Shown: positions 7,611 to 13,468 of the stretch, piece after piece
How the letters are laid out: each line of letters begins with the position of its first letter
Numbering within the stretch: the first letter of the stretch is position 1
Translations under genes and position numbers: made by a program
IMG/VR virus record: IMGVR_UViG_3300045999_003697
Span: 1 to 23,556 of that record
Source of the DNA: a virus
Length of the DNA stretch: 23,556 nt
Strand: one strand, 5' to 3'
Notes under the pieces: model-generated
The model's database searches: none
The model's input: the letters and a program-made list of their open reading frames with translations, nothing else
What the model was told of the DNA's origin: nothing

Positions 7611-7798
7611 GATTTCACTTCGGGACCTTGACCAGAGCCGCGGCCTACTTCGGAGTCACAGAAGCGTGCATCCATAACTGGGGACGCAAGAACCCGGCTC
7701 CGTTCCTGAAGCACATTCGGGAGTTTCATCGATATTCGGGACTCTCTTACGGCGAGATCGCAGAACTCGTAACCCGTACCGAGCAACAAATCGAATGA
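7577..7798 (+). CDS. Small helix-turn-helix DNA-binding protein
   Basis: A 73-aa protein. The segment LTRAAAYFGVTEACIHNW (about 18-35) fits the helix-turn-helix of Cro/YdaS-type regulators (A-A-x-x-F-G-V-T-x-x-x-I-x-N-W), and the C-terminus is helical. It overlaps the initiator gene by 4 bp (ATGA) and so is translated with it. It could regulate early promoters or replication. There is no divergent repressor or integrase in this window, so it is not clearly part of a lysogeny switch. Confidence 0.65.
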   Translation: MRKPTELQTVLRFHFGTLTRAAAYFGVTEACIHNWGRKNPAPFLKHIREFHRYSGLSYGEIAELVTRTEQQIE

Positions 7799-8559
7799 AC
7801 CACGGTCTCTGGATTCCGGAACGCATCTGGGCGCTCCCTCTCTCCCTCCACGAACGCATCTTCCTCGCGGTGATTCAATCCTACGCCGATACAGGCAAGG
7901 ATTGTTTCGCTTCGAATGAATTCCTCGCGCAACGGTGCGATACCTCGGAGGTGCAAATCCGAAAGACAATCAAGAAGCTTCTGGACCTCGGATACCTCTC
8001 TCGGGACGGTTACGCATCCAGCCGGAAGTTGTTCATTTCTGAACTTGTTCAAAATGGAACTTGTTCAATTCTGAACTCCAAAAGTTCAAATCTGAACTCT
8101 GAGAAGTTCAAATCTGAACCTGAAGAAGTTCAAATCCGAACACATACTATAAAGACTACTAAAAAGAGTAGTTTAAAGGATACTAGAAAGAACACGCGTG
8201 CGCGTGGTGTGGTGGAGGAAAAAAAGGAGGAGGTTGTTCTTCCATTCGATTCTTCCGACTTTTCGAATGCGTGGGAGAACTGGAAAGAGTACCGGGCGAA
8301 AGAGTTCGGGTTTAAGTACAAGTCCCACGTATCACAGCAGACCGCTTTACATTCACTTCAGAAACTCTCAGACAACAATGAGCGAACGGCAATTGGGATT
8401 ATCGGCCAGAGCATCGCAGCCGGGTGGCGCGGTCTCTTTCCCCTCAAAGGCAACGGAGGCGTTAACCTTACGCGAGAGGGATTCACACGGCATTTTGAAA
8501 GTAGGGGAGCCGGAGGTAATCCACCGGCATGGACTGAGCGTTTCACGGGCGAAATCTGA
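7795..8559 (+). CDS. Replication initiator with origin inside the gene (lambda O-like architecture)
   Basis: A 254-aa protein. Residues about 5-80 form a winged helix-turn-helix (FLAQRCDTSEVQIRKTIKKL with the wing at YLSRDGYAS), which would bind the iterons. Residues about 83-148 are a polar, low-complexity Ser/Lys/Glu linker encoded by the iteron DNA itself. Residues about 155-215 form a conserved C-terminal domain (AWENWKEYRAKEF... to IIGQSIAAGWRGLFP) seen in phage replication proteins, likely contacting the helicase or loader. An initiator gene whose middle part is the origin is exactly the arrangement of lambda O. It would bind the six repeats at 8031-8141, melt the AT-rich stretch and recruit the replisome. 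It is preceded by a HTH gene and overlaps the next gene. Confidence 0.8.
   Translation: MNHGLWIPERIWALPLSLHERIFLAVIQSYADTGKDCFASNEFLAQRCDTSEVQIRKTIKKLLDLGYLSRDGYASSRKLFISELVQNGTCSILNSKSSNLNSEKFKSEPEEVQIRTHTIKTTKKSSLKDTRKNTRARGVVEEKKEEVVLPFDSSDFSNAWENWKEYRAKEFGFKYKSHVSQQTALHSLQKLSDNNERTAIGIIGQSIAAGWRGLFPLKGNGGVNLTREGFTRHFESRGAGGNPPAWTERFTGEI
8031..8141 (+). repeat. Six 14-bp iterons (origin of replication)
   Basis: Copies of the dyad GTTCAAATCTGAAC or close variants start at 8031, 8047, 8063, 8084, 8106 and 8128. Each keeps GTTCA at the left and most keep TGAAC at the right, so every unit is a near palindrome. The first three are 16 bp apart and the last three 21-22 bp apart, i.e. about two helical turns. 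They lie inside the initiator gene and are followed by an AT-rich segment. This is the layout of a lambda-type origin. Confidence 0.85.
8142..8190 (+). other. AT-rich stretch next to the iterons, probable unwinding element
   Basis: About 48 bases that are visibly A/T-rich compared with the surrounding sequence, directly downstream of the last iteron. They include a small hairpin ACTACT-AAAAAG-AGTAGT at 8155-8172. The same positions code for a Lys/Thr/Ser-rich part of the linker. In lambda-type origins the duplex opens in an AT-rich segment at this location. Confidence 0.65.
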
Positions 8560-9025
8560 AGACCTCACCTACCTCCGGGCGCTCCTCGGGCGCGAGCTCG
8601 TGCAGCTCATGCGGGCGGTAAAGGTCAATAACACGTTCTCGAACGAGGAGGATATCTACACAGCAGTCGACGATATCATCGAGGAGTTCAAGACGCTCAA
8701 AGTGGAGGAGGTGGTTCACGTCTTCGCGCAGATCCGCCGCGGGAAAATCGAAATCTACGGGCGGCTGGACACTCCAACGATTTGCAAAGCGCTCCGAGAC
8801 TACGACGTAAACGTGGCGTGCGAGTTCAGGGAGAAGCACTACAAGGAAGCCATCCAAGAGGAAGCCCTCGCGTCACGGTCTTTTCAGGAGATTATAGACT
8901 CCCTCCCGGAGGTTCGGCCTACATTCGCCGAAATCCTCTCACGCCGGCCGAAGTTGGGGCCGCAGGAGCGCGAAGAAATCAAAGCCAGAGACCGAGAAAG
9001 ATGGCAACAAAGCGGGCAGCCCTAA
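8378..9025 (+). CDS. Probable replication-associated protein, unknown family
   Basis: Up to 215 aa. The convincing part begins about residue 55 (SRAKSEDLTYLRALLGRELV...), a helical region with NTFSNEEDIYTAVDDIIEEF and a segment VVHVFAQIRRGKIEIYGRLD that resembles small replication-linked proteins of Bacteroidota mobile elements. A C-terminal acidic/basic tail follows. Its place right after the initiator parallels the lambda O-P order, so a helicase-loader-like role is possible; this is inference only. The start is uncertain: ATG 8378 overlaps the initiator by 182 bp, whereas a later non-ATG start (e.g. TTG near 8495) would cut that overlap. It overlaps the next gene by 25 bp. Confidence 0.6.
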   Translation: MSERQLGLSARASQPGGAVSFPSKATEALTLRERDSHGILKVGEPEVIHRHGLSVSRAKSEDLTYLRALLGRELVQLMRAVKVNNTFSNEEDIYTAVDDIIEEFKTLKVEEVVHVFAQIRRGKIEIYGRLDTPTICKALRDYDVNVACEFREKHYKEAIQEEALASRSFQEIIDSLPEVRPTFAEILSRRPKLGPQEREEIKARDRERWQQSGQP

Positions 9026-9399
9026 TCGCGAAGCTGGACAAGGTGTTCTCGCACTACGTCCGCCTACGGGTGTGTGACGAGTACGGATTCTCCGACTGCT
9101 TCACCTGCGGAACCCGGAGGCACTGGAAGGAAGTCGACGCGGGCCACTTCATCACGCGAGCGAAATTCGCGACGCGGTGGGATCCGGTGAACGTTCAGTT
9201 TCAGTGCAAGCGGTGCAACATGAACGGAGGCCAGCAGTACGCGTTCTCAAGGAAGCTGGACAGCACCTACGGAGAAGGAACGGCCGAAGAGCTGTACATC
9301 AAGTCTCAGGCGCGAGCGGGTTATAGCAATGAAGATTTACAGGGAATGATAGCCCTGTTTTCGAAAGAACTCCGTGAACTCGAAGGCCTCGTGGGATGA
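9001..9399 (+). CDS. ninG: NinG-like (Rap) recombination nuclease
   Basis: A 132-aa protein. Zinc-binding Cys pairs are visible: C33/C36 (CFTCGTRR) and C69/C72 (QCKRCNM), with the diagnostic DAGHFITRA motif (His49) between them. This pattern is that of lambda NinG/Rap, a structure-specific endonuclease that cuts recombination intermediates. The length is shorter than lambda NinG because the N-terminal extension is reduced. It overlaps the upstream gene by 25 bp and the downstream gene by 26 bp. In the replication module it would process branched DNA during replication and recombination. Confidence 0.8.
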   Translation: MATKRAALIAKLDKVFSHYVRLRVCDEYGFSDCFTCGTRRHWKEVDAGHFITRAKFATRWDPVNVQFQCKRCNMNGGQQYAFSRKLDSTYGEGTAEELYIKSQARAGYSNEDLQGMIALFSKELRELEGLVG

Positions 9400-11463: not shown

Positions 11464-11646
11464 ATGACACACGAAGGAATGCTCGCCTCAATTACGCGAG
11501 AGCTTGTTCGAACCGAGATTCAGATCCACGCACAGAACCCGGAGATGGCTCTGGGGATGGCTATGGCCCGAAGAATCATGGAGAGGCAGTACGCGGAGAA
11601 ACTCGCACAAGGAACCGCTAAGGAATCCTTAGGAGTTCAACCCTGA
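11464..11646 (+). CDS. Small helical early protein, unknown function
   Basis: A 60-aa protein (MTHEGMLASITRELVRTEIQ...), Ala/Met-rich and fully helical by pattern. It is the last of six small genes that follow P2. The inverted repeat at 11649-11678 comes 2 bases after its stop and may end the transcript or regulate the methyltransferase gene. Confidence 0.55.
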   Translation: MTHEGMLASITRELVRTEIQIHAQNPEMALGMAMARRIMERQYAEKLAQGTAKESLGVQP

Positions 11647-11686: not shown

Positions 11687-12376
11687 ATGACAATACACGA
11701 AATCGGAAAGGTCAAGATTTACAACGGTGACAACCTCGAAGTCTTGAGCTCGCTAGAGCTTGATTTATCTCGCTGCATTTTTGTGACCGATCCTCCCTTC
11801 AACGTAGGATATCACTACAACGAATACGAGGACAAGATGGACGAAAAAGAATACTACAAGTGGCTCGTGGAAATCTTTGGAACTCAAAGGCACGTAGTAG
11901 TCCACTATCCCGAATCTCTGTATTTATATTCTCACTATGCTCACCAGATACCTCAGAAGGTTGTAAGCTGGGTTTACAACTCAAACACGGGTAAACAGCA
12001 CCGGGATATCGCATTCTTCAACGTCAAGCCTGATTTCCGAAAGGTTAGCCAGCCGTACAAGAATCCAAACGACAAGCGAATCGCAAAGAGGATTAGCGAA
12101 GGCAAGACGGCGCGGCTTTACGACTGGTGGGAAATCAACCAAGTAAAAAACGTGAGCTCCGAAAAGACGGAGCACCCTTGCCAAATGCCACAAAAGGTTA
12201 TGGACAACGTGATAGGGATACTTCCGGAAGGTTACACAATCGTTGACCCCTTCCTCGGAAGCGGAACCACGGCTCTTTCTTGCATGAAGTATGACCGTGA
12301 TTTTATCGGTATTGAGATTGACTTCAAGTATTTCGAGATTGCAAAGCAGAGGATACAAAACACCGAGCCAAGATGA
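11687..12376 (+). CDS. Beta-class DNA methyltransferase (N6-adenine or N4-cytosine)
   Basis: A 229-aa enzyme. Catalytic motif IV is DPPF (35-38, in FVTDPPFNVGYHY) and the SAM-binding motif I is DPFLGSGTT (187-195), in the order IV before I that defines the beta class; DPPF suggests adenine-N6 methylation. The KTEHPCQMPQ segment (160-169) is the usual motif before the SAM site. The recognition sequence cannot be read from it, and there is no partner restriction gene, so it is a solitary phage methyltransferase that probably protects DNA. Its sequence looks more A/T-rich than the surrounding early genes, hinting at separate acquisition. It overlaps the next ORF by ATGA. Confidence 0.88.
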   Translation: MTIHEIGKVKIYNGDNLEVLSSLELDLSRCIFVTDPPFNVGYHYNEYEDKMDEKEYYKWLVEIFGTQRHVVVHYPESLYLYSHYAHQIPQKVVSWVYNSNTGKQHRDIAFFNVKPDFRKVSQPYKNPNDKRIAKRISEGKTARLYDWWEINQVKNVSSEKTEHPCQMPQKVMDNVIGILPEGYTIVDPFLGSGTTALSCMKYDRDFIGIEIDFKYFEIAKQRIQNTEPR

Positions 12377-12632: not shown

Positions 12633-12773
12633 ATGAACTACCTCGGCTACCTCGATACGTGGAGCGTCTTCGACTTCACCGGCTGGTACCTCTTTGTTTC
12701 ACTCTTTTTCTTCGTCCTACGAGATGAGCTATACAAAAGCAGAACGCGCGGAAATCGCGAAGAACATTCGTGA
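12633..12773 (+). CDS. Small membrane protein, unknown function
   Basis: A 46-aa ORF (MNYLGYLDTWSVFDFTGWYL...) with one very hydrophobic segment about residues 18-29 (WYLFVSLFFFVL) and a basic C-terminus (RDELYKSRTRGNREEH). It is the first plausible gene after the repeat/hairpin region. Its 3' half overlaps the next gene by 50 bp in another frame. It could be a membrane-targeted small protein of superinfection exclusion type, but nothing proves it. Confidence 0.45.
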   Translation: MNYLGYLDTWSVFDFTGWYLFVSLFFFVLRDELYKSRTRGNREEHS

Positions 12774-12951
12774 GTACGCCAAAGAGCGGCGCATCGAATA
12801 CTGGAAGAACTACAACCTCAAAGACGACGAGGACACACGGTGCTTCACCAGATACGCCACGAACTACGATTACCTTTGGCTGCAAGCCGTCGCAGACGAC
12901 GTACTCGGAAAAATCAAGCACGATGAACTCCACTGGATTGACAAGGGTTAA
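12724..12951 (+). CDS. Small charged protein, unknown function
   Basis: A 75-aa protein (MSYTKAERAEIAKNIREYAK...), helical with many Lys/Glu/Tyr residues. ATG 12724 is preferred over 12694 because the longer start would add a hydrophobic stretch read mostly in the overlapping membrane ORF. It overlaps the ParB-like gene by 29 bp. No recognised domain. Confidence 0.55.
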   Translation: MSYTKAERAEIAKNIREYAKERRIEYWKNYNLKDDEDTRCFTRYATNYDYLWLQAVADDVLGKIKHDELHWIDKG

Positions 12952-13468
12952 GCTCTCCCAACTCAAGAGTAACCCAAACAACCCGCGAATAATCAAGGAC
13001 GATAAATTCCGGAAGCTGGTTCGGTCGATCACAGAGTTCCCCGAGATGCTCGAAGCCCGACCTATCGTCTGTGACCCCGACGGGGTAGTTCTAGGAGGCA
13101 ATATGAGGCTCAAAGCGTGCCGGGAGGCAGGGCTCAAGGAAGTACCCGCCTACGTCGTTACATGGGAGGAAGCGAAGCAGAGGGAGTTCATCATAAAGGA
13201 CAACGTAGGGTACGGAGAATGGGACTGGGACGAGCTCGCAAATACGTGGGACCCCGTCCAGCTCGAAGAATGGGGGCTCGATGTGTGGCAACCGGAAGAA
13301 GAGCCTAGTTTGGAGGACTTATTAGGCGAAGAGAAAGACAACCCTGCTAGTATGAAGATTACTTTTGCAAGCCCGGAGCAATTACAAAGGGCCGAAGTAG
13401 TAATACAGGAGTATCTTGATCGGGAATGCCCGGGCTCGTACTTTTCTATTTCGGTCGGTGCAGCATGA
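12923..13468 (+). CDS. ParB/Srx-fold protein
   Basis: A 181-aa protein. The N-terminal domain has the ParB nucleotide-binding signature: LKSNPNNPR (about 14-22), then VVLGGNMRLKACREAG and VPAYVV, equivalent to the GGxRR/GxR box of ParB-like proteins. A middle segment with KDNVGYGEWDWDEL and LEEWGLDVW is typical of the phage ParB-like family, which is often linked to DNA methylases. The C-terminus (MKITFASPEQLQRAEV... ) forms a small alpha/beta domain. ParB-fold domains bind and hydrolyse CTP or act as nucleases. It overlaps both neighbours (29 bp and ATGA), placing it in the modification operon. There is no ParA, so plasmid-like partitioning is unlikely. Confidence 0.75.
   Translation: MNSTGLTRVKLSQLKSNPNNPRIIKDDKFRKLVRSITEFPEMLEARPIVCDPDGVVLGGNMRLKACREAGLKEVPAYVVTWEEAKQREFIIKDNVGYGEWDWDELANTWDPVQLEEWGLDVWQPEEEPSLEDLLGEEKDNPASMKITFASPEQLQRAEVVIQEYLDRECPGSYFSISVGAA

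Follow-up and report, generated by a model that had tools for sequence, protein, structure and literature searches.

A predicted replication origin within the initiator gene of an uncultured phage and its counterparts in related initiators

Does a cluster of six near-palindromes inside a phage gene mark the place where replication of that phage begins, or are the repeats regulatory sites, or do they only reflect the protein that they encode? The sequence analysed is the entire IMG/VR record IMGVR_UViG_3300045999_003697 (23,556 bases), here called the window. An earlier, sequence-only reading had proposed a lambda-type origin inside an initiator gene, in an apparently unrelated Bacteroidota phage. 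We conclude from sequence comparison that the array is very probably the phage's replication origin, lying inside its own initiator gene, and from this we infer the steps of binding, melting, helicase recruitment, and initiation.

The gene (7795–8559, plus strand) encodes an O-like replication initiation protein of 254 amino acids, which over its whole length matches the phrog_678 profile, "replication initiation O-like" (1e-17), and at residues 16–68 matches the Pfam family HTH_36 (3e-10). The N-terminal winged helix that had been claimed for this protein is present, the AlphaFold model placing it at residues 8–82 (7816–8040, plus strand) with pLDDT mostly >90. In the same model a C-terminal domain of three helices occupies residues 154–210 (8254–8424, plus strand) and is probably the partner-binding part of the protein. 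Residues 91–137 are disordered in the model, in a linker rich in S, N, K, and E; this disordered stretch is mainly what the iterons and the AT-rich tract encode, and the wing is touched by the first site only. The same three-helix domain is found in L013–L016, joined there to differing N-terminal domains, an arrangement pointing to likely domain shuffling among phage initiators.

Within this gene we find six sites of the form GTTCN6GAAC, which start at 8031, 8047, 8063, 8084, 8106, and 8128 and are separated by steps of 16, 16, 21, 22, and 22 bp, in agreement with the six near-palindromes in two spacing groups first described. Iterons 1 (8031–8044, GTTCATTTCTGAAC) and 2 (8047–8060, GTTCAAAATGGAAC) belong to the 16-bp group and are followed by iteron 3 (8063–8076, GTTCAATTCTGAAC); iteron 4 (8084–8097), of the 21/22-bp group, and iteron 5 (8106–8119) both read GTTCAAATCTGAAC, and iteron 6 (8128–8141, GTTCAAATCCGAAC) adjoins the AT-rich tract. 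The arms are perfect over 5 bp (GTTCA/TGAAC) in the four sites at 8031, 8063, 8084, and 8106, and over 4 bp only in the two at 8047 and 8128. Elsewhere in the record GTTCN6GAAC occurs just once, at 11635. The array is the strongest cluster in the record among all dyads with 4-bp arms, and it is also the record's top tandem-like place, with a score of 0.77 against 0.57 for the next.

Could the repeats simply follow from the low complexity of the protein linker and have no function in the DNA? The linker is predicted to be disordered and has the composition that such an explanation needs. However, synonymous recoding of the initiator gave at most four sites and never six in 20,000 trials, and permuting the gene's own synonymous codons gave at most five (20,000 trials), so the protein sequence does not explain the array. 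The six sites use all three codon frames, two sites each. Together these results indicate that selection acted on the DNA: The initiator gene holds an array of repeated sites beyond what its protein dictates.

Directly after the array comes an AT-rich tract (ACATACTATAAAGACTACTAAAAAGAGTA...; 8142–8186), as the sequence-only reading had stated, which is a probable DNA-unwinding element. Its 45 bp are 73% A+T, compared with 51% across the initiator gene, and of all 45-mers in the record, the one starting at 8148 is among the two richest in A+T. In the relative L009 the first 29 nucleotides of the tract are identical. Of 54 genes compared, 52 have an equivalent tract behind the array, and across the homologues A+T climbs from ~0.55 to 0.75–0.78 over the 45 bp just after the arrays; an AT-rich tract adjoining the array is thus found in the window as in its relatives. 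The words AATAATACA, TACTAA, and ATAATA are common to the tract at 8142–8186 and those of homologues, far above their level in equally AT-rich stretches of genes, and are perhaps an unwinding or single-strand binding motif. A codon-frame test of AATAAT and TACTAA as signals was uninformative: The words are nearly always in one frame, which avoidance of stop codons can explain. Along the record, GC skew, which had been suggested as a check at the array, shows no clear switch and is uninformative on the origin.

In close relatives, the positions of the sites are kept while their letters change. The L009 initiator (81% amino acid identity) has sites at all six positions with the spacing unchanged; five of the six now start GTTCC (GTTCA/TGAAC having become GTTCC/GGAAC), and three are GTTCCAAATGGAAC in full. 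Its linker protein differs from that of the window, EKFKSEPEEVQIR being replaced by QKFQMEQLDVPNG. Alignment of homologues had been proposed as the check on an in-gene origin of lambda type, and this alignment supports that reading: The linker diverges, the six dyad positions are retained, and most of the sites change together. That the amino acids changed and the dyads stayed also argues against a by-product of the linker. L026–L028 (~50% identical) have five sites, with steps of 16, 21, 22, and 22 bp, and the positions of iterons 2 and 3 are among those kept in L026. In L030–L032 a different repeat, GTTGTAtAaAtcAGAAC, recurs every 22 bp in an array one unit shorter. The winged helices of L026 and L030 differ by only three changes in 80 residues (D50T, V54I, and T66A).

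More distant relatives, with sites unrelated to those of the window, were found by searching with the downstream protein (8540–9022). Four of their initiators (L134, L136, L139, and L141) have TTGCGCn6GCGCAA arrays in the same place, and four others (L078, L090, L098, and L115) have GCAACn4GTTGC sites. The first and last sites are 97 bp apart in the window, in L009, and in the four genes with GCGC sites, and 96 bp apart in the four with GCAAC sites. The homologues therefore hold an array at the same place, and in the GTTC, GCGC, and GCAAC families the layout is the same: two steps of 16 bp (or one of 32), then three of 21 or 22 bp. The GCGC group lacks the second member of the 16-bp pair, and L115 keeps the span with no clear second site. 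The common span and steps, together with these gaps among the upstream sites, indicate that the two-phase layout is conserved as a plan, its upstream part being the weaker one; the two-phase spacing noticed in the window recurs in initiators with different iterons. As far as their sequences tell, the relatives appear to form a clear natural series of specificity changes. We put forward tentatively, leaning slightly against it, a more specific reading in which the frame of 96–97 bp (two 16-bp and three 21–22-bp steps) is fixed and the sites are exchangeable words, rewritten across the whole array when a few residues of the winged helix change.

The window matches one relative, L011, up to position 8029, two bases before iteron 1, after which the portal region follows in reverse. 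At this junction (L011:3231–3235) window position 8029 is joined to 3071 on the other strand, and there is a second reversal near L011:306–319. The junction is either an assembly chimaera or a real rearrangement at the predicted origin.

In-gene repeats extend well beyond these relatives. We collected 51 non-redundant initiators by their winged helix and compared their best internal repeat with the 95th percentile of 132 control genes. Forty-seven of the 51 exceed this threshold, with repeats just after the winged helix-turn-helix (wHTH), and 35 exceed all 200 permutations of their synonymous codons. Thirty-three initiators repeat best at a lag of 22 and nine at 23 (42 together); repeat lags in the control genes favor multiples of three, whereas 22 and 23 are no codon multiple. 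These lags and the recoding trials refute the explanation by a low-complexity linker, to which we attach next to no probability. A second sample, drawn with a different seed after the test was fixed, gave 36 of 39 initiators above a threshold that is lenient owing to AT-rich genes, and a best lag of 22 or 23 in 26 of them. By the same test lambda O has a lag of 23 and P22 gp18 a lag of 24. No clear array is seen in four of the 51 homologues, among them the gene of the Leptospira phage LE1. Initiators of the HTH_36 class in phrog_270, phrog_2880, and phrog_428 have the same winged helix as the window protein and, in those examined, in-gene arrays, but they differ from it in that iteron sequences vary from family to family, as do C-terminal domains.

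Significant dyad symmetry is confined to 18 of the 44 arrays, and many relatives have direct asymmetric repeats (for example, GGCAGACTT), so that universal dyad symmetry is ruled out and some members use direct repeats. In a partial Mantel analysis against iteron similarity, the recognition helix has a partial r of 0.38 and the rest of the domain 0.36; since the rest of the domain tracks the iterons as well as the recognition helix does, this correlation does not establish cognate recognition. Among initiators whose recognition helix is of the type FCQCSExKVS, many have in common asymmetric repeats with GCAGACTT or near variants, which follow the wHTH (L071, L072, L075, L076, L086, L110, L111, and L122). 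These repeats are suggestive of a second, non-dyad binding mode that may exist in the same class. In L037 (5356–5483), four GTTCAn4TGAAC sites, 22, 23, and 69 bp apart, lie in the linker of a winged-helix-like gene, a number reached in none of 200 shuffles. The L037 protein is only a marginal match to the window initiator (E = 0.013) and belongs to another PHROG (phrog_6969); GTTCAn4TGAAC seems to have been reached independently there, or borrowed.

How far does the window resemble known origins? As predicted for the window, the origin of lambda O, P22 gene 18, and Stx O lies in the initiator gene, behind the DNA-binding domain. The lambda-type origins likewise have inverted-repeat iterons of ~18 bp, about two helical turns apart, an AT-rich tract directly after them, and ninG further downstream. 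They differ in their steps (20, 24, and 23 bp in lambda, compared with 16, 16, 21, 22, and 22 bp in the window), in the C-terminal domain of the initiator, and in the next gene, which in the window is not P. The window protein scores 14.3 bits against the Pfam family Phage_rep_O (PF04492), below the cut-off of 28.7, while lambda O and P22 gp18 score 123 and 129. With Phage_rep_O below cut-off and the next gene not P, the window stands, on profile evidence, outside the strict lambda O/P module, nor is it a RepA_N member by Pfam. All three proteins match phrog_678 (1.7e-35 for lambda O and 2.5e-38 for P22 gp18), so the description of the phage as apparently unrelated to lambda has to be qualified for its initiator, which is remotely O-like. 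The Bacteroidota host proposed with it is not established, and in the bacterial genomes searched for the initiator no relative was confirmed. We judge that the window origin would work like the lambda origin and that its initiator belongs to the broad class of initiators with predicted in-gene iteron origins.

A variant of this arrangement can be considered. The origin could be in-gene and operate in the mode of DnaD-type Rep proteins (RepA_N; pSK41), the C-terminal domain recruiting primosome parts with no need of a phage loader. In pSK41 Rep the origin is also within the gene, where it encodes the linker between an N-terminal DNA-binding domain and a C-terminal helical domain (PMC5703833), as the origin would in the window. 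In a fold search the best matches of the window's N-terminal domain are the plasmid Rep structures 4pql, 4pt7, and 5kbj and DnaD (2v79), and the next gene carries no loader signature. These fold matches are weak, however (E = 0.007–0.04), and similar in significance to those of many MarR proteins. RepA_N (PF06970) is absent from the Pfam matches of the initiator at E up to 1, DnaD_N reaches 19.6 bits, under its cut-off of 27, the context is that of a phage, and DnaC-like loaders adjoin other members of the class. We consider this mode rather unlikely.

The product of the next gene bears on the same point. The conserved part of this gene (8540–9025, plus strand; phrog_35728, DUF6633-like) overlaps the end of the initiator gene, and its start codon lies upstream at an uncertain place. 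The gene comes after the initiator in the relatives checked and is conserved in the phage group; its equivalent in L078 is DUF6633-like, below cut-off. It has no Pfam match at cut-off and PHROG matches only to families of unknown function, and comparison with P, DnaC, and DnaB gave no match by Pfam, PHROG, or fold, the last with a poor structure model, which leaves room for a distant structural likeness to a loader. Elsewhere in the class, the gene that comes next to the initiator encodes a DnaC-like loader or DnaB-like helicase. Of the replication partner that the sequence-only reading saw here, therefore, the position stands and a match to P, DnaC, or a helicase is wanting; from its position, the product is possibly a helicase loader. 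A NinG/Rap-type endonuclease gene follows (9001–9399, plus strand; PF05766, 3e-11; phrog_5034, 4.5e-24), and in P22 ninG is likewise downstream of the replication genes. Further downstream of the replication genes, the window encodes a DNA methyltransferase (11687–12376) and a ParB_N-like protein just under the Pfam cut-off (12770–13468).

Winged helix-turn-helix repressors also bind dyads, and the sites might be operators, at which a winged-helix regulator bound to its own gene controls downstream transcription while replication starts elsewhere. A search of PDB sequences with the profile of the initiator found only general winged-helix regulators, the nearest of MarR type, and a search with the single protein found no match. 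Yet the profiles that match the initiator are of replication initiation, with no regulator family at cut-off; the array is deep in the gene with the AT-rich tract directly after it in nearly all genes compared; the neighbors in relatives are DnaC-like loaders and DnaB-like helicases; and the record has no second array of such strength. We regard operators as highly improbable.

For the in-gene origin, a mechanism can be proposed. The initiator would bind as dimers, its N-terminal winged helix contacting the six sites. Next to the AT-rich tract, three sites follow one another at two helical turns, a spacing that would place bound dimers along the same face of the DNA, and these sites would form the core of a compact complex. 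Upstream of them lie three sites at 1.5 turns, frequently degenerate in the relatives, which probably serve to bring in more initiator and to make the complex more stable. Stx phages have six iterons, of which two distal ones are bound poorly by O yet needed (PMC7466680), and the 16-bp group may act in a similar way. Wrapping would then open the tract at 8142–8186, and the replicative helicase would be recruited by the C-terminal helical domain, either by itself or together with the product of the next gene.

Lambda, P22, the Stx phages, and pSK41 already exemplify the principle of an origin within its initiator gene. Judging by the literature found, the novelty seems to lie in how widely the arrangement occurs among metagenomic phages and in a constant frame whose sites can be exchanged; our search of the accessible papers found the lambda, Stx, and pSK41 cases but no study that surveys in-gene iterons in phage metagenomes. 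Phage replication modules as such were reportedly reviewed by Weigel and Seitz in 2006.

The origins of uncultured phages are seldom located, and the rule that emerges here (repeats of 22–23 bp after a wHTH, then an AT-rich tract) is usable for finding them in many phage contigs. Near-identical winged helices with different sites provide a test set for joint change of domain and site, and the same series of relatives allows a test of whether replication specificity separates related phages. If the fixed-frame reading is true, new, mutually exclusive replication specificities would arise fast in phages that are alike in other respects, and each group of sites, half-turn or full-turn, would have a task of its own.
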